Source of the DNA: Candidatus Liptonbacteria bacterium RIFCSPLOWO2_01_FULL_53_13
Lineage (GTDB): Bacteria > Patescibacteriota > Minisyncoccia > UBA6257 > 2-01-FULL-56-20
Reading direction: 5' to 3'
NCBI GenBank assembly: GCA_001818895.1
Contig: MHLB01000017.1
Location: 1-10,535, forward strand
Length of the DNA stretch: 10,535 nt
Shown: piece after piece, positions 1-6,488 of the stretch
Position numbering within the stretch: position 1 is the stretch's first letter
Layout: each line of letters starts with the position of its first letter
Position numbers and translations under genes: made by a program
Notes under the pieces: model-generated
Told to the model about the DNA's origin: nothing
Seen by the model: only the letters and a program-made list of their open reading frames with translations
Databases searched by the model: none

Positions 1-1308
1 TTTTTCCGCAAAATCCTGTTTTATGCCTTGGTTTTCCTGTTTTTTCTCATAGGGATAGGGGTGGCGGGTTATGCACAGGGGTGGCGTCTTGACATCCCTT
101 CGTTTGCGCTCAAAAAGGTGGGGGCTATCTACGTGCAAAGCGCCCCGCGCGATGCCGCCATTGCGCTTGATGGGAAGCACATAAAACCGAATGGGGGCTT
201 TTTCCAGACCGGCACGCTCGTGAACGGGCTCTTCCCCCGTTCTTATACGCTCACGCTCTCCCGCGAGGGGTATCGCCCGTGGAAACGGACGCTTTCCGTG
301 GAGCCGGCGAAAGTGGCGGAGGCAAAGTACGCTCTACTCGTGCCGGAGGCCGCAACCGCGGTCGCAACCGGAAGCGCAAAGAATGTGTGGCTTGCGGGAA
401 GTGAACCGATTACGCTCGTCGGAGGCGAGTTGCACTACAAGAATCAGAAATTGCGGGGAACGGACATTTTGGACGTAACGGCGGACGGCGGGCGGGCGCT
501 CGCGCGGGACGGGGCGACGGGCGCGCTTTTTTTACACGACCTTACCTACGCGACTTCCACGAATTTTTCCTCTCTTCTTGCAAAACTCGGCATTACAGGG
601 AAAGATGCACAATTTTCCTTTGACCCGGAGGATGGCACGAAAATAATCGCGCTCTCCCCGCACGCGCTATCCCTCATAGACACGGAAAAAAAGATGGTAG
701 GCGGGCTCGCGAAAACTTCTGCGCGGACTATCACGGCGCAGGTGGTGGGAAAATCGTTTATCGCGTGGGCGATTGCGAATACCGGAACGGCAACTTCAAC
801 CGTCGGGCTCTACGAGAAATCCACCAAACTCTCGCGGATGGTCGGCGGCGCATTGGCGGGTGAAACCGCGAAGCTCGCCTGGGTAAATTCCAATGTCCTT
901 GCCATCCTCCAGCGCGACGGCTCGCTGTATCTCTATGACACCGGCGACGACGCCCCCAAAAAGCTCGCGAGCGACGTGCGCGATATTGCGTTCACCGCAA
1001 ACGGGGACAAAATCGCCGCGCTGGAACATAAAAGCATTGAGATATTCTCTCTGCGCGACGCGAAGGACTATTGGAGATTCAATACCCAGAACGCCGAAAG
1101 TATCGGCGAACTCTCGTGGCATGCGGATGCCCACAATCTTTTTCTTCACTATGCCGACCGCGTAGCACTGCTTGACCTGGACGATAGCGCGCAGGAAAAC
1201 ATCACGCCTGTCGCGGAAACGGAAAAAGGAATGTATGACGAAAAAGGAAATAAATTTTTCTTTCTGGACAAGAACGGGCTTTCGGTAATTGTGTTCCCGG
1301 AAAAATAA
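1..1308 (+). CDS. PEGA-domain membrane-anchored protein, 5' end outside window
   Basis: The frame is open from base 1 (FFRKILFYA precedes any start codon), so the TTG at 28 is probably not the true start and the gene is partial; 435 residues are visible. A hydrophobic segment (about residues 4-24) looks like a signal anchor, placing the rest outside the cytoplasm. It is followed by a PEGA-type domain (about residues 40-113: GAIYVQSAPRDAAIALDGK, then a G-Y-x-P-W turn and K-R-T-L strand). The remaining 320 residues contain repeated strand-rich stretches (for example GSLYLYDTGDD, KSIEIFSLRDAKDY, DRVALLDLDD) that suggest a beta-propeller-like fold; this is inference. PEGA domains are common in surface proteins but have no catalytic role. 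The stop codon TAA falls in the T-tract of a minus-strand terminator, so this gene converges on the RNA candidate to its right. Specific function unknown. Confidence 0.85.
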   Translation, partial: FFRKILFYALVFLFFLIGIGVAGYAQGWRLDIPSFALKKVGAIYVQSAPRDAAIALDGKHIKPNGGFFQTGTLVNGLFPRSYTLTLSREGYRPWKRTLSVEPAKVAEAKYALLVPEAATAVATGSAKNVWLAGSEPITLVGGELHYKNQKLRGTDILDVTADGGRALARDGATGALFLHDLTYATSTNFSSLLAKLGITGKDAQFSFDPEDGTKIIALSPHALSLIDTEKKMVGGLAKTSARTITAQVVGKSFIAWAIANTGTATSTVGLYEKSTKLSRMVGGALAGETAKLAWVNSNVLAILQRDGSLYLYDTGDDAPKKLASDVRDIAFTANGDKIAALEHKSIEIFSLRDAKDYWRFNTQNAESIGELSWHADAHNLFLHYADRVALLDLDDSAQENITPVAETEKGMYDEKGNKFFFLDKNGLSVIVFPEK

Positions 1309-1334
1309 ACAAGGGGTGCTACGCGGAGCACCCC
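1301..1334 (-). terminator. Intrinsic terminator of the minus-strand RNA candidate
   Basis: Perfect 8-bp stem: GGGGTGCT at 1313-1320 and AGCACCCC at 1327-1334 with a 6-nt loop. Read on the minus strand it is followed by TTGTTTATTTTT (1312 down to 1301), a good U-tract. Read on the plus strand there is no U-tract after the stem, so it is directional for leftward transcription. The U-tract overlaps the last codons of the PEGA gene. Confidence 0.75.
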
Positions 1335-1557
1335 AAGCTTGTTGGTCGCGAGCGGGACGGAGAAGGGGGGACTACTTTTGGATCACCCCCTCTCAGACCG
1401 CGCGGGGCGCGGCGGAAGCAGACAAGGAGCAGTTGCAGCCCCTCTGTCTCATGGACTCCTCCTTTCCCCGAAGAAACCCCCTGCATGACCCGCAGAGAGC
1501 CGCAAAGGAAGAACTCCTCCCCGCGTCCCGCTCGCTTTCTCAAAGCTGAAGAATCTG
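1301..1557 (-). ncRNA. Candidate structured non-coding RNA, family not recognised
   Basis: A leftward transcript of about 240-255 nt is bounded by an extended -10 promoter and an intrinsic terminator. Its body is closed by a perfect 12-bp stem, GCGAGCGGGACG (plus 1348-1359) with its complement at 1524-1535. Inside are six hairpins (plus coordinates): 1360-1394 (9 bp, 15-16-nt loop), 1398-1412 (6 bp, triloop), 1420-1449 (11 bp with one bulge), 1463-1476 (4 bp), 1477-1499 (8 bp) and 1507-1520 (5 bp). Five of the pairs are G-U on the minus strand and would be A-C mismatches on the plus strand, which fixes the sense strand as minus. I looked for RNase P, SRP, tmRNA and 6S signatures and found none convincing. 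The RNA is free-standing, with no long ORF of coding character. Confidence 0.6.
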
Positions 1558-1563
1558 TGCTAT

Positions 1564-1572
1564 ATTATAGCA
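1564..1572 (-). promoter_or_regulatory. Extended -10 promoter for the RNA candidate
   Basis: On the minus strand the sequence is TGC followed by TATAAT (1572 to 1564), an ideal extended -10 element. A TTGATT lies at 1582-1587 but only 12 nt away, too close for a normal -35, so the extended -10 would have to carry the promoter. The predicted start is near 1556-1558, about 20 nt before the closing stem of the RNA. Confidence 0.6.
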
Positions 1573-1603
1573 TAATTAGGAAATCAAGCCCCCTAATTTC
1601 ATT

Positions 1604-1622
1604 CCTCCTTTCTCAAAGGAGG
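1604..1622. repeat. Perfect inverted repeat, 8-bp arms
   Basis: CCTCCTTT (1604-1611), loop CTC, AAAGGAGG (1615-1622). The central CTTTCTCAAAG also occurs at 1535-1545, in the leader of the RNA candidate, there with shorter arms. It starts a gene-free stretch running to 2067 in which seven perfect inverted repeats occur. Confidence 0.8.
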
Positions 1623-1654
1623 TGGCGAAGCCGTGCGAGCCAGAGGATTTCGTT

Positions 1655-1735
1655 TCTTATAAATCCTATTTGTCTTATTTGTCCTATCGGTCATATCAGT
1701 CATATCGGCCCTATTCGTCTTATTCATCCCATCAA
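1655..1735. repeat. 9-nt tandem repeat, nine degenerate units
   Basis: Nine consecutive 9-mers, among them TCCTATTTG, TCTTATTTG, TCCTATCGG, TCATATCAG, TCATATCGG and CCCTATTCG, with a loose consensus TCnTATnnG. Read on the minus strand they give the GAnAtAnGA type of intergenic repeat that I associate with candidate-phylum genomes. The unit is a multiple of three, so any frame through it yields a spurious three-residue repeat peptide. No gene is indicated. Confidence 0.8.
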
Positions 1736-1741
1736 AAGCGC

Positions 1742-1760
1742 AAGGACGTCCGACGTCCTT
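1742..1760. repeat. Perfect inverted repeat, 9-bp arms
   Basis: AAGGACGTC at 1742-1750 and GACGTCCTT at 1752-1760 around a single C. With only one central base this would extrude as a DNA cruciform or form an RNA hairpin only by opening inner pairs. No T-tract follows on either strand, so it is not a standard terminator. Confidence 0.75.
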
Positions 1761-1795
1761 AAGTGGCAATACGGCAAAGAGAGAACGAATCCCCC

Positions 1796-1825
1796 TATTC
1801 TCATGTTCTTGAGAACATGAGAATA
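1796..1825. repeat. Perfect inverted repeat, TATTCTC family copy 1
   Basis: 14-bp arms: TATTCTCATGTTCT at 1796-1809 and AGAACATGAGAATA at 1812-1825 around TG. The outer 7 bp (TATTCTC and GAGAATA) are shared with the repeat at 2032-2061 while the inner arms differ. A second, overlapping palindrome follows at 1822-1839. Confidence 0.85.
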
Positions 1826-2067: not shown

Positions 2068-3852
2068 TTACGCTATTTCACTGTTATAGCAACTTTCGCA
2101 ATACACGATCTCCGGCCTGTCGGGCGCATAGGAGGTCTCAAATTCGTTGGGGCAGGGCTCCCCGCCGTGAAAATGGGCTGTCGTATTCGCGTATCGCGAT
2201 GCGCCCTTGTCGTCAGTCGTAAGTTGTGAGTCGTCCGCCTTCCCTCGGCACTGGCATCCCCTTTTCCACAAACGGCGTGGATTGCGAAGCGTGAACCGGT
2301 CAGTCCGCCGGCACGGAAAACATTTTTGCGGCAAGGGAATTTGAAGTTTCCGGTATATCTCAAGCTCCAATGGAACGATGCGGAATGCTCCGACGCAAAG
2401 CGGGCGGTTTTCTTTCTCTCCTGGCGATTCTTGCGAGATACATCCGATAGTTTCGTTCAAAATGGAGTCATTTGTTTCAGCAATCGTTTCGGAGAGTTTT
2501 GAAGCGGGAATCGTAACTTGATATTCCTGCTTTTCCCTGTCGCGCCACGAGTATCCTTTCGCGAGCGCTTCGGCTTTGGAAAGCGGAAAATAGTCCTGCG
2601 CCATACTTTCATTGTAGGTAAACGGTGAAACCTCCGGAGGAAAATATTGTCCCCATTCTCCCGTTTTCTCCATATGTTCAATGATTTTTTTCTTCAGCTC
2701 CACGTATTCTTCTTTGGAATATTGCTTGTTCAGTATGCAATACGATCCTTTCTTAAGGCCGAAACAGCCGAAGCAATTGCTTGTCCCAAAACACATGTCG
2801 CAATAGCAAGAGTCGGTAATGGTGTTAAAACAGCTCCGCGCCACGATTGTCCGATGCGGAGAATCAACCCCCTGCGTTTCGTATGAAAGCTGTCCGACGA
2901 TTATTTCCGTACAATCTCGGCAGTCTTCGTTCTGCTGCCACGCGTCCTGCATATATGCGGTATCCTTGTTGTCGCGGCAGTTAAATGCGGACCGCGCCCG
3001 CTGGGTATTTTCAATGTAATCGCCGGAAGAGCTTTGCGTCTGCATCCCGTGATAGAATTTCACCGGGATGCTTAAGCGCAATCGGGAAAACTTTTCGCGC
3101 GCTTCCTGCAAAAACCCCCTGTTTAAATGAGATGTTTGGAGGCGTTTTTCGTACTCCTCTTTTCCTAGATTTTCATTGAACCAATGGTACTGTTTGTTGC
3201 GAAGCCCGACGCACCCGAAGCAATTTGAGCATCCGCGGCAGTTACTTGATAAGTAAACGCCTATGCAGTCCGAGCAATCATAACACCAGGCGCAACCCGA
3301 GCATTTCGCGACGTTAATACACTCGTAGCAAAATTCACTTTTTTCTGTCATATAACAGTCAGAACAAAGAAAAGATTTTTCGCACCAACTGCCATACATG
3401 CATTTCTCGCACCTGTCGCTTGTGACAAGCATATAGCAATCCTTGTTGTTTTGGGCTTGATTCGTATATTCGCTGTTGACGCTGTTGGAATTCACCATCG
3501 CCAAATGAGGCACGGCACGCCGAAGTTCTTCATACTGTTCAAAAAACGGCCGGCTAAAGTCAAAGTCACGGCCGTATTGTGTGGGGTCCCACGCGTCGGA
3601 CTTCCAATATTCCTGATTGTATACGGGAAACGGCGCATCCGACCGATAAATGGAAATGATACTTTTTCCCGTTGCGTCGCATTTTCTCTTGCAGAAATTA
3701 TATTCGTTCCTGTCCAAAAGCCGCCGGATATACCGGCACTCCGGGCACCACGTCGGCGGCTGGACCTTTATCTTTTCATAAAAGCTGAAATCGTCGGGTT
3801 CTATCGTGAACTCGGATTTACAATTTTGGCAGGTTTTCGTCTCTGAATTCAT
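2068..3852 (-). CDS. Cysteine-rich zinc-ribbon protein, downstream paralog (594 aa)
   Basis: I chose the ATG at 3852 (MNSETKTCQNC), because it matches the start of the neighbouring paralog; the upstream ATGs (MMHHTT) are a reading of the palindrome at 3864-3889. Domains: an N-terminal zinc ribbon resembling the probable zf-trcl type (C8, C11, C36, C39; PPTWCPECR); a central cysteine-rich stretch with many CxxC pairs; two copies of a FGC...Y..(N)...KEEY signature; a second ribbon (C486, C511, C514); and a C-terminal CESC (585, 588) after NEFETSYAP. Soluble, with no signal or membrane segment. The product is 594 residues, close to the paralog (587), 52 nt upstream and on the same strand. Odd points: the second ribbon has lost its normal first CxxC, and residues 540-548 are encoded by a 7-nt tandem repeat. 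Function unknown; metal binding is inferred. Confidence 0.85.
   Translation of the reverse strand: MNSETKTCQNCKSEFTIEPDDFSFYEKIKVQPPTWCPECRYIRRLLDRNEYNFCKRKCDATGKSIISIYRSDAPFPVYNQEYWKSDAWDPTQYGRDFDFSRPFFEQYEELRRAVPHLAMVNSNSVNSEYTNQAQNNKDCYMLVTSDRCEKCMYGSWCEKSFLCSDCYMTEKSEFCYECINVAKCSGCAWCYDCSDCIGVYLSSNCRGCSNCFGCVGLRNKQYHWFNENLGKEEYEKRLQTSHLNRGFLQEAREKFSRLRLSIPVKFYHGMQTQSSSGDYIENTQRARSAFNCRDNKDTAYMQDAWQQNEDCRDCTEIIVGQLSYETQGVDSPHRTIVARSCFNTITDSCYCDMCFGTSNCFGCFGLKKGSYCILNKQYSKEEYVELKKKIIEHMEKTGEWGQYFPPEVSPFTYNESMAQDYFPLSKAEALAKGYSWRDREKQEYQVTIPASKLSETIAETNDSILNETIGCISQESPGEKENRPLCVGAFRIVPLELEIYRKLQIPLPQKCFPCRRTDRFTLRNPRRLWKRGCQCRGKADDSQLTTDDKGASRYANTTAHFHGGEPCPNEFETSYAPDRPEIVYCESCYNSEIA
2209..2236. 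repeat. 7-nt tandem repeat inside the coding sequence
   Basis: Four successive 7-mers on the plus strand: GTCGTCA, GTCGTAA, GTTGTGA, GTCGTCC. On the coding strand they encode DDSQLTTDD, which is absent from the paralog at the equivalent place, so the repeat appears to have been added in frame. Confidence 0.7.
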
Positions 3853-3863
3853 GGGCTTGATAC

Positions 3864-3889
3864 GAGTGGTATGATGCATCATACCACTC
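3864..3889. repeat. Perfect 26-bp palindrome, TATGATGCATCATA family copy 3
   Basis: Identical to the palindrome at 1895-1920. It sits in the 52-nt gap between the two zinc-ribbon genes, 12 nt upstream of the start of the downstream one. It could act on translation or mRNA processing there, or be a mobile palindrome that landed in the gap. Confidence 0.9.
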
Positions 3890-3904: not shown

Positions 3905-5668
3905 TCATGCCACTTCAGCATTGTAGCAACTTTCGCAATACACTATCTCCGGCCGCTCCGGCGCGTAGCTGGTCTCAAATTCGTTGGAGCACGATGATGT
4001 GCTATGAAAATGCTTTGCGGTATTTGTGTAAATGCCGCTCTCGGATTTTTGCCCTGCGCAACCGCAACGGCGCGCATAAAGCTTGCTTTTGTTTCTTTGT
4101 GCAATCCGTTCGCTATGCCGGCAATCCACACAGGTACGCGGCGCGGGGATACCAAGTTGTTTCAAGAATTGCAGTTCGGGCTGGATAAGCCGATACGCAC
4201 GCTTGCAGTTTTCGCACTGAATAATCTCCTTCAAAATGTCGTCGCTCACATCTTTGATGGAATCTGGGATTGCCGAAGCGGGCATCGTCGTCTGATATTC
4301 GGTCGGGTTCGGATCTTGCCACCGTGCGCCGAACGCCTCCACCTCCTCGCGTGTCATCGTGAAATGCTCCGGTACGATGGTGTGCTGATAAGCGAACGGA
4401 GAGAATTCCGGCGGGAAGAATTCGCCATATTTATATACTCTGCCTTTTTTATCAACATAGGGCATGTCGTTCATATGTTTGATTATCCGTTCGCGTAGCA
4501 CGGCGTATTCTTCTTTTGAATACTGCTTGTTCAAAATGCAATATTGCTGGTCCATAATCCCTACACAACCGAAAAGATTCGCCCCGTTTCTGTGGCAATC
4601 AATTGAATATTCCATTTGCCGTCCCCCGTCCCAACAATCCCAGCAGAATTTAAGGTCCGCCGCATTCCAACCACTAACGGCCACTTCATAAAAAAGTTCC
4701 GATTTTGAGCCGATAAGGGACGCATCCATACAATCACGGCTTGAGGGAACCTGCGAATACTGCACGTATTTTAAGTTTTCGCACTCACGAATTAAGTAAC
4801 TCTTATGCACGTTTTTGGAATGGGTTATATATTCTCCCGAAACATTGTTGTTTTGGACGCCCTGCATGCTTTTATTCGGATGCGTGAGCCAGAATGCGTG
4901 CGCCCGCCTTCCTGCCGGTTGGATGCCTTGCCATCTGTGCAAAGCCATCTCTGCGAGGCGTTTCTCGTATTCTTCCTTGGAATACTGCTCGTTGAAAATG
5001 CAATATTTTTTTGAACGCATGTTCACGCACCCGAAACAATCGGCGCAACTCCGGCAGTTTTTTGAAAACCAAACGTTGATGCAATCTTCACACTGCGCGG
5101 AATAATGCGTTTGGTAGCAATTCGTGAGCCAAAAAGAGTTATAGCATTGCTGTGATTTCTGAACATGCGAGTTGTCGTAACAATTACTGCTGAAATCAAC
5201 GCCGTTTCCGTAGGCGCTGTCTTCGGTATGATTGGAATTGAAGAGAAGGTAGCAATTCTTAAGACCGTCAGCATTGCCCGAATATTCGCTGTTCACCATG
5301 TTAATCGCAAACGTTGCCATCTTGGGAACCTTCTTGAAAAGTTCAAGCAACTGCTCCAAAAAGGGGCGGCTAGGGTCAAAGTCCCGGCCGTACTGAAGCG
5401 GGTCCCATGCCTCTTGGCTCCAAAAATCTTTGTCGGGATAGACCGTGAATCCGCTCTCGGGCGGCCAGAATGAAAGCATCGGCTTGCCGTTCAACGGATT
5501 GGTGCTTTTGAAAAGCTTTCTTTCGTTTCTGAAAAGAGCCCGCCGGAAGAAGCGGCACGAAGGGCACCACGTGGGAGGAGGCACTTTGAACTTTTCGTAC
5601 CAGCCGAAATCCTCCGATTCTATGGTGAACTCGGATTTACAATTTTGACACGTGCGTTCTTCGGTCAT
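3905..5668 (-). CDS. Cysteine-rich zinc-ribbon protein, upstream paralog (587 aa)
   Basis: Starts at ATG 5668 (MTEERTCQNCKSEF), preceded in the same frame by a TAA two codons upstream. N-terminal zinc ribbon C7, C10, C35, C38 with the motif PPTWCPSCR; a middle region of spaced C/N repeats (NCYLLFNSNH, NCYDNS, QCYNS, NCYQTH, QCEDC, NCRSCADCFGC) suggestive of a repetitive solenoid; two YCI-x-N-x-x-YSKEEY signatures; then a complete second ribbon (C485, C488, C513, C516: CENCK...PRTCVDCR) that resembles the first, an internal duplication; CGC at 535-537; and C-terminal CESC (578, 581). Cytoplasmic by appearance. It is the first gene of a tandem pair with 2068-3852. It ends in TGA at the place where the paralog ends in TAA. 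Similar proteins are, from memory, frequent in candidate-phylum genomes under uninformative names. Function unknown. Confidence 0.85.
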   Translation of the reverse strand: MTEERTCQNCKSEFTIESEDFGWYEKFKVPPPTWCPSCRFFRRALFRNERKLFKSTNPLNGKPMLSFWPPESGFTVYPDKDFWSQEAWDPLQYGRDFDPSRPFLEQLLELFKKVPKMATFAINMVNSEYSGNADGLKNCYLLFNSNHTEDSAYGNGVDFSSNCYDNSHVQKSQQCYNSFWLTNCYQTHYSAQCEDCINVWFSKNCRSCADCFGCVNMRSKKYCIFNEQYSKEEYEKRLAEMALHRWQGIQPAGRRAHAFWLTHPNKSMQGVQNNNVSGEYITHSKNVHKSYLIRECENLKYVQYSQVPSSRDCMDASLIGSKSELFYEVAVSGWNAADLKFCWDCWDGGRQMEYSIDCHRNGANLFGCVGIMDQQYCILNKQYSKEEYAVLRERIIKHMNDMPYVDKKGRVYKYGEFFPPEFSPFAYQHTIVPEHFTMTREEVEAFGARWQDPNPTEYQTTMPASAIPDSIKDVSDDILKEIIQCENCKRAYRLIQPELQFLKQLGIPAPRTCVDCRHSERIAQRNKSKLYARRCGCAGQKSESGIYTNTAKHFHSTSSCSNEFETSYAPERPEIVYCESCYNAEVA

Positions 5669-5674
5669 TGCGGT

Positions 5675-5752
5675 TTACAGCCCCGATGCCCCCGGGGGTC
5701 GGGGTCCCGACTTTACGTCAGGATTCTGGCAGGTTTTTATCTCGCTTTCCAT
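5675..5752 (-). pseudogene. 25-codon in-frame ORF: zinc-ribbon N-terminus remnant or leader peptide
   Basis: ATG at 5752 opens a 25-codon ORF ending in TAA at 5675-5677. Its first ten residues, MESEIKTCQN, match the start of the downstream paralog (MNSETKTCQN); after that the homology breaks off into PDVKSGPRPPGASGL, encoded by a GC-rich palindromic stretch. It is in the same reading frame as the 587-aa gene, which starts two codons after its stop. I read it as the broken start of another family member, interrupted by a GC-rich palindrome; a translated leader peptide is the alternative. Confidence 0.55.
5682..5705. repeat. GC-rich palindrome in front of the 587-aa gene
   Basis: CCCCGA, TG, then CCCCCGGGGG, then TCGGGG: nested inverted repeats with a 2-nt bulge and no loop, about 15-38 nt upstream of ATG 5668. 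It lies inside the 25-codon ORF and encodes its proline/glycine-rich end. Its base composition is unlike the gene on its left. Confidence 0.6.
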
Positions 5753-5759
5753 CGCTCTG

Positions 5760-5788
5760 ACTATAACGTATCACAGGAAAACCGCCAA
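5760..5788 (-). promoter_or_regulatory. Promoter candidate for the zinc-ribbon pair
   Basis: On the minus strand TTGGCG (5788-5783) is followed after exactly 17 nt by TATAGT (5765-5760). The predicted start is at about 5753, almost on the ATG of the 25-codon ORF at 5752, so that ORF would be translated from a nearly leaderless transcript. The -35 box lies in the stem of the hairpin at 5771-5806. Confidence 0.45.
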
Positions 5789-5806
5789 ATGGCGGTTTTT
5801 CTGTGA
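5771..5806. terminator. Long hairpin with A- and T-rich flanks, probable terminator
   Basis: TCACAGGAAAACCGCC (5771-5786) pairs with GGCGGTTTTTCTGTGA (5791-5806) with one non-Watson-Crick position and a 4-nt loop. Either strand has a GGCGG stem followed by T4-T5, so it can terminate in both directions. It lies between the rpsI terminator and the zinc-ribbon genes and may insulate them. Confidence 0.6.
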
Positions 5807-6030
5807 TGAACTTTGTCCGCGTCTGTCCGCGTGAGGTCTGCGTCTGTCTGCGCCTGCTCGCAAGCAGGGTTAACGCTTTGCCCAATGTGGCGTCGCTCGC
5901 ACTGCTCGCTCCTTAGAAACCATCGGTTTCTAAACGCCCCTCGCGAGCGCTCGGGGCTATTTCCAACACGGGGAAGGACTCCTTTCCCGTCCTTCCCCGA
6001 CCCCTATCCTCTCCCCAATGGGCAAAACTA
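5807..6030. other. Gene-free stretch rich in hairpins
   Basis: No convincing coding sequence. It contains an imperfect tandem repeat (5815-5855) and four inverted repeats: CCTGCT/AGCAGG at 5853-5868, TTAGAAACC/GGTTTCTAA at 5913-5933, GCCCC/GGGGC at 5936-5957, and CGGGGAAGGAC/GTCCTTCCCCG at 5969-5999. The stretch is flanked by terminators on both sides. No clear promoter was found, so I do not call an RNA gene. Confidence 0.6.
5815..5855. repeat. Imperfect 10-11-nt tandem repeat
   Basis: Four units: GTCCGCGTCT, GTCCGCGTGAG, GTCTGCGTCT, GTCTGCGCCT. It is directly right of the hairpin at 5771-5806 and runs into the small hairpin at 5853-5868. Confidence 0.65.
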
Positions 6031-6061
6031 AATAAAAACCCCCGATTCGGGGGTTTTTATT
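6031..6061. terminator. Bidirectional intrinsic terminator after rpsI
   Basis: AAAAACCCCC (6034-6043), loop GATTC, GGGGGTTTTT (6049-6058), with A/T pairing continuing outwards. A 5-bp GC stem with T-tracts in both directions ends 1-2 nt from the rpsI stop codon, so it most likely ends the ribosomal-protein transcript. Confidence 0.9.
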
Positions 6062-6062
6062 T

Positions 6063-6488
6063 TTAACGCTTTGCCCACTGAGGAGCCCTTCTCGCTTTCT
6101 TGAGTCCGTACTTCTTGCGTTCCACCATTCTTGAATCGCGGGTCAGAAATCCGAGCCCGCGCAGGCGCTTTTTCAAATCGGGGTCCTGGAGGATAAGCGC
6201 GCGGGAGAGCCCGTGGCGCACCGCTTCCGCCTGCCCTTTCGGGCCGCCTCCGGACACTTTCGCGGTGAAATGCTCTTTCGTGAGCTTGAGCTGGGTAAGG
6301 GGCGCAATGACTATTTCGCGCAAACGGGGAATGGTGAAATATTCCGCGAATTTCTTGCCGTTCACCTGCGTCTCCGCGAAATGCGCGCCGATGCGCACGC
6401 GCGCTACTGCGGTTTTCCGCCTCCCGACGCCCTCAAAGAATTTCTCTTTGGATTTTACTGCGGCTGGTTTTGATTTTGCTTCTGCCAT
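6063..6488 (-). CDS. rpsI: Small ribosomal subunit protein uS9
   Basis: 141 residues. The S9 signature is clear: GRRKTAVARVRI near residue 22, GGGPKGQAEAVRHGLSRAL in the middle, and LTRDSRMVERKKYGLKKARR before the C-terminal APQWAKR. S9 binds the 3' major domain of 16S rRNA, and its basic tail reaches the P-site tRNA; that tail is present here, with W where F is usual. A lysine/alanine-rich N-terminal extension of about 15 residues precedes the fold. It is the last gene of the cluster, 14 nt after rplM, the usual L13-S9 pair, and is followed at once by a strong terminator. No Shine-Dalgarno sequence is seen. The last 15 coding and stop bases occur again at 5870-5884. Confidence 0.97.
   Translation of the reverse strand: MAEAKSKPAAVKSKEKFFEGVGRRKTAVARVRIGAHFAETQVNGKKFAEYFTIPRLREIVIAPLTQLKLTKEHFTAKVSGGGPKGQAEAVRHGLSRALILQDPDLKKRLRGLGFLTRDSRMVERKKYGLKKARRAPQWAKR

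Follow-up and report, generated by a model that had tools for sequence, protein, structure and literature searches.

The closest described counterparts of the RNA candidate discussed here are RNase P RNA (RF00010), 6S RNA (RF00013), SRP RNA (RF00169 and RF01854), and the orphan intergenic small RNAs (sRNAs) of bacteria. RNase P RNA is, like the candidate, a closed multi-arm structure, while 6S RNA, about 200 nt long and closed by pairing of its ends as the candidate is, forms a single long rod interrupted by a central bubble. SRP RNA is also end-paired, and the candidate comes near the size of its large type. With the orphan intergenic sRNAs, the candidate has in common a promoter-like element, a fold, and a terminator-like element arranged in order, as well as a narrow phylogenetic range, but it differs from them by its closed four-arm body. 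Small RNAs of such reduced genomes seem little described, as judged from a literature survey that was not exhaustive.

We analyzed a window of 10,535 nt at the start of a 14.3-kb contig from a genome of 777,595 bases that is 81% complete. The candidate lies on the minus strand of this window, between the stop codon of a gene for a PEGA-domain protein and the first of two Cys-rich genes, where an earlier note had proposed an undescribed structured RNA. Our best reading, for which we see an even chance, is an orphan, independently transcribed, structured sRNA encoded on the minus strand. It is probably an RNA gene ordinary in kind, with no evidence of a basic role.

Anatomy and fold of the candidate

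The elements of the candidate and its nearest genes are collected in Table 1.

Table 1. Features of the candidate locus, numbered from the first base of the window
Feature	Positions	Strand	Basis
PEGA-domain protein gene	1-1308	plus	Pfam search
Intrinsic-terminator-like hairpin (1334-1313) with T-rich tail (1312-1301), TTGTTTATTT	1301-1334	minus	terminator scan, fold
Closed multi-arm RNA body, 188 nt	1348-1535	minus	fold
Closing stem, 3' strand, perfect 12 bp	1348-1359	minus	letters, script, pair probabilities
Arm 4, hairpin with exposed 9-nt loop CCAAAAGUA (1381-1373)	1365-1390	minus	minimum-energy fold, unpaired probabilities
Arm 3, GC hairpin	1392-1418	minus	minimum-energy fold
Arm 2, hairpin with 7-nt loop	1420-1449	minus	minimum-energy fold
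Arm 1, long interrupted hairpin, AAAGGAGG paired with CUUCCUUU	1453-1517	minus	minimum-energy fold
Closing stem, 5' strand, perfect 12 bp	1524-1535	minus	letters, script, pair probabilities
5' tail of predicted transcript, weakly structured, about 20 nt	1536-1557	minus	unpaired probabilities
Extended -10 promoter element TGCTATAAT	1564-1572	minus	motif scan
Cys-rich gene, first after the candidate	2068-3882	minus	ORF list
Cys-rich gene, second	3905-5668	minus	ORF list

The perfect 12-bp stem described in the earlier note is present as an inverted repeat, with pair probabilities of 0.76-1.0, and after one unpaired base it runs on for five further pairs. The repeat rests on the letters and a script, a repeat search at the settings chosen having listed none in 1300-1600. 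Inside the stem, the minimum-energy fold has four arms, not the six internal hairpins counted earlier, and a short linker joins the body to the terminator-like hairpin. The fold of 1306-1557 contains 51 G-C, 24 A-U, and 14 G-U pairs. Among the G-U pairs that had been named as signs of the transcribed strand, 1428/1440 and two pairs inside 1477-1499 (1496/1480 and 1498/1478) are found in it, whereas 1425/1444 and 1510/1517 are absent from its 14 G-U pairs.

The body folds at -102.5 kcal/mol on the minus strand, with a z-score of -4.4 over 300 shuffles, compared with -80.8 kcal/mol and a z-score of -2.2 on the plus strand, a preference that agrees with the earlier choice of the minus strand as the transcribed one. 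The core inside the closing stem reaches a z-score of only -1.65 by itself; the fold exceeds chance against its own shuffles, and the closing stem carries much of the excess. In absolute terms, the fold is strong largely because the sequence is GC-rich, at 57-70% across the body in 60-base steps, compared with 33-45% just outside it and an intergenic mean of 47%.

For a ranking within the genome, we took 190-nt windows on both strands at 463 intergenic places, 926 strand-windows in all, with 20 shuffles each; the candidate came 2nd by energy and 102nd by z-score. Twelve percent of these strand-windows have a z-score below -4, other intergenic stretches of the window (about 1740-2160 and 5690-6160) reach -5 to -8, and perfect inverted repeats of at least 12 bp, spaced 60-250 nt apart, occur 47 times in the genome, coding and intergenic DNA taken together. 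By z-score, the fold is unremarkable for this hairpin-filled genome, and against such a background a strong fold alone is weak evidence.

The same background speaks for another reading, possible although rather unlikely, in which the locus is an inert or DNA-level intergenic element of the kind of hairpin stacks, palindromes, or dispersed structured repeats, its promoter-like sequence having arisen by chance or serving something else. Dispersed structured repeats do exist in this genome, and inspection of folds by eye showed further closed multi-hairpin stretches behind uS9, both in the window and in relatives, whose closing stems are unrelated. Such an element would sit less easily with the candidate being single copy in its genome, with the strand preference of its fold, and with the orientation that it shares with both the extended -10 element upstream and the terminator-like hairpin downstream.

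A small protein-coding gene, either a 74-aa minus-strand frame or a 19-codon frame behind AAAGGAGG, is very improbable here. Inside the body, AAAGGAGG does stand 5 nt ahead of an AUG, but it is buried in a helix, and a Shine-Dalgarno sequence precedes 6 of 462 starts, taken as the first ATG of each crude longest ORF, compared with 10 at internal control positions, a crude count with no enrichment. In addition, a search of a large protein collection for three shared 5-residue words returned nothing for the 74-aa frame, and neither this frame nor an 86-aa plus-strand frame has a Pfam match. Sequestration of a Shine-Dalgarno sequence belonging to the small frame was likewise considered as a mechanism and rejected for the lack of such enrichment in the genome.

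Promoter-like and terminator-like elements in their neighborhood

The TGC-TATAAT promoter proposed earlier is indeed there on the minus strand, where it overlaps a 15-bp palindrome, TGCTATAATATAGCA; by eye, no good -35 hexamer lies 16-18 nt away from it. Its motif, TGNTATAAT, has its sole copy in the window at this place, and since 33 of 200 shuffles of the window contain at least one copy, the window alone does not take it beyond chance. Genome-wide, we counted 67 copies, 37 of them in ORFs and 30 in intergenic DNA, which totals about 75-77 kb, whereas seven permuted 9-mers used as controls have 1-5 copies each in intergenic DNA and 9-21 in ORFs; intergenic DNA is defined here by a crude longest-ORF set that includes spurious frames. 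The candidate's own copy is tallied among the 37 because one such spurious ORF of 111 aa (1485-1820, plus strand) overlaps it. Reading downstream from the 30 intergenic copies, one first meets an ORF on the same strand in 22 cases, a feature on the opposite strand in seven, and nothing in one.

The motif looks like a working promoter motif in this genome and offers a measurable promoter marker for it. Owing to its enrichment in intergenic DNA over the permuted motifs, the copy at 1572-1564 is likely a real promoter, and the sequence evidence suggests that the candidate likely has, as an sRNA gene should, a promoter of its own, without a -35 box. Transcription is predicted to start near 1556-1557.

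At the other end, where the earlier note saw a strong terminator, a hairpin with a T-rich tail lies in the right place, but terminator-like sites are equally common in shuffles (17 in the window versus a shuffled mean of 16.6), and the T-tract partly coincides, on the opposite strand, with the last codons and stop of the PEGA gene. The hairpin also starts within 5 nt of that stop, and the Cys-rich genes are co-directional with the candidate RNA. These points would fit a by-product of convergent gene ends, with 1334-1313 as a terminator of the PEGA gene, or shared with it, and the remainder as untranslated or processed read-through from the minus-strand Cys-rich genes. Such an origin is nevertheless distinctly unlikely, given the roughly 510 nt with several hairpins between the Cys-rich gene and the candidate, and the enriched promoter motif just upstream of the body.

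The window also carries a minus-strand ribosomal cluster whose members, named by eye from their translations, we take to be uS9, uL13, bL17, RNA polymerase alpha, uS4, uS11, and uS13. In six of 29 PEGA loci from relatives (G020, G017, G009, G019, G023, and G028), uS9 lies directly downstream of the PEGA gene in convergent orientation, across a gap of about 53-375 nt; in the other 23, uS9 was not seen within the 0.9-1.5 kb available downstream. Here the PEGA gene and uS9 are about 4.75 kb apart, with both Cys-rich genes, several palindromes or hairpins, and the candidate between them. We infer from this comparison that the segment was gained in this lineage, although it may instead have been lost in the others. 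With the PEGA protein as bait, no confirmed relative was found in collections of genome contigs and viral contigs.

Meanwhile, the two Cys-rich proteins, of about 600 aa each, had no Pfam match but are members of a protein family that has expanded greatly: this genome alone gave 34 matches, and 19 of 38 family genomes, its own included, gave at least one.

Searches for relatives among known RNAs and in related genomes

A cmscan of the window yielded no Rfam family at gathering scores, and at E up to 10 the region 1200-1700 gave seven matches, all far below gathering scores and none of them a housekeeping RNA, in line with the earlier failure to match the candidate to RNase P, SRP, tmRNA, or 6S RNA. 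ARAGORN reported nothing in the window and no tmRNA in the genome's contigs, and the candidate has no tRNA-like end.

A strongly diverged housekeeping RNA of one of these four kinds is therefore extremely improbable, even though two of them went unfound elsewhere in this incomplete genome: tmRNA, by ARAGORN, and RNase P RNA, although its model matched every one of the 20 relatives searched, in 8 of them above the gathering score. The body is short next to the 323-485 nt of 12 RNase P matches from the family, and its multi-arm fold sets it apart from 6S RNA. The 6S model had no match in 21 genomes, own included, a weak point as it matches only 5 of 14 control genomes. Both SRP RNA models were likewise without a match in 21 genomes, and matches to the SRP54 GTPase domain were confined to 7 of 21 genomes, all short and weak and one of them over the cut-off, which 14 of 14 controls exceeded; there is thus probably no SRP for the candidate to serve. 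SRP looks absent from the order sampled. Loss of SRP has been published for Parcubacteria (PMC4508563). Genome size, gene content, and the missing SRP suggest that the organism is a Parcubacteria-like bacterium.

As a separate observation, the RNase P match at one relative's locus (L168; G040, C3 4800-6100) covers only 207 bases over the full 367-position model and scores 36.6 bits, below the gathering score. That genome is listed as 100% complete, and its RNase P RNA is possibly reduced.

In blastn searches with 1290-1575, 101 genomes (own included) returned the candidate itself and one 23-nt match inside an ORF (G074), and a DNA search of 383 genomes of the class, again with its own, returned the same two alone; phages and plasmids gave no match at E 1e-5. 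A single-sequence covariance model recovered, from the 101 genomes, the candidate and a match in G016 at E 0.008, which runs antisense to an ORF resembling adenylate kinase by eye and was not taken as a credible homologue. With laxer filters, 38 family genomes (own included) added three further weak matches at E 2.3-6.8 (G015, G007, and G004). These 38 genomes include no sister genome from the same genus. Additionally, an 18-mer around the arm-4 loop has five matches in the species collection, all set aside, as their similarity to the candidate stops at 18-21 nt; four are in or antisense to open frames of at least 275 codons, and the fifth (L201), which immediately precedes an ATG within an antisense stretch of 135 codons, may be intergenic.

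The homologues that the earlier note had looked to candidate-phylum genomes for did not appear: there is no credible one in 100 relatives, in 382 other genomes of the class, or in phages and plasmids. As a yardstick, 12 family RNase P RNAs were compared by mutual blastn and found each other at E 1e-3 in 56 of 132 ordered pairs, or 3-6 of 11 per query, with a database of 800 kb and blastn settings different from those of the genome search. This yardstick is generous because the RNase P RNAs are longer and were pre-selected by the family model. With that reserve, had the candidate been conserved as well as RNase P, it would probably have surfaced in some of the other 37 family genomes, but it did not.

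Without a credible homologue, there is no covariation to consider; the test came to nothing through a lack of sequences rather than through contrary evidence. The genomes searched yielded no credible homologue that would place the candidate in a conserved structured RNA class, and the lack of a credible relative among them favors a young, lineage-specific RNA over a new component basic to the cell. The basic role that had been thought probable is thereby left without a homologue to speak for it, and six relatives lack the segment between the PEGA gene and uS9. It is doubtful, though conceivable, that the candidate is the first example to be seen of a structured RNA class not yet described, either mobile or evolving fast, which travels with the Cys-rich gene segments of these reduced genomes and has sister copies outside the genomes searched.

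If the orphan sRNA is accepted as the preferred reading, the locus would be a single-copy, lineage-specific gene for an RNA of about 240-250 nt, transcribed on the minus strand from the extended -10 element at 1572-1564 and ending at the hairpin 1334-1313. The closing helix of 12 + 5 pairs and the four GC-rich arms would give a compact, presumably stable body, leaving the 5' tail of about 20 nt and the arm-4 loop exposed. The RNA would most likely act in trans as a regulatory RNA through these exposed parts, or else as a protein-binding scaffold, either mode being a guess.

In a crude duplex test against 690 start regions, the tail, the arm-4 region, and the linker paired no better than shuffled segments. 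The 5' tail reached a mean of -10.4 with 25 Cys-rich genes versus -9.5 for all, an apparent slight edge, and pairing with Cys-rich mRNAs was set aside as a mechanism that the test does not support.

Other structured elements of the genome

Several further elements came to light in and around the window. At 5865-6062, and at five other loci (L170, L173, L175, L180, and L189), the 3' end of uS9 (15-64 nt) is repeated 100-193 nt downstream, past a hairpin-rich insert. Of the family genomes whose downstream sequence could be used, 6 of 29 carry the repeat (this genome, G000, and G024, G023, G013, G003, and G019), from a sample of 35 genomes with uS9 and 30 loci, one too short; a match in G025, 640 nt away, was left out. 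Five related inserts have a GAAACCGANGGTTTC-type hairpin in common, and one of the five, in C22, is this genome's second copy. Among them, 10 of 29 predicted pairs are changed on both sides and others are broken, with a covariation term of only -0.16. The insert resembles a small structured element that would insert at the gene's end and restore that end.

A dispersed structured repeat of 170-245 nt, of the form AAAGTTGGC..GGCAACTTTG, is found at L091 (5558-5730, plus strand), L131, L104, L119, L079, L083, and L105, giving seven aligned copies, and partially in C14. It had no match in 122 loci from other genomes and no Rfam match in three copy-bearing contigs (C19, C11, and C32). In these copies, 6 of 55 predicted pairs are changed on both sides, and the overall covariation term is unfavorable (+2.35).

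The crude start count, for its part, gave no sign of Shine-Dalgarno usage in the whole genome. Four closed hairpins without an Rfam match lie at C10 8784-8872, C56 5179-5267, C42 3132-3221, and C39 1728-1833; by eye, the pairs C10/C56 and C42/C39 (in opposite orientation) have a common core with quite different perfect arms of 16-21 bp. Within the window, palindromic hairpins at 1895-1920, 1987-2014, and 3864-3889 share a TATGATGCATCATA core and differ in their outer stems, with similar ones in other contigs. Finally, 1656-1740 consists of short tandem-like repeats of the TCATATCGG type, and similar stretches occur in C32, C43, and C19.
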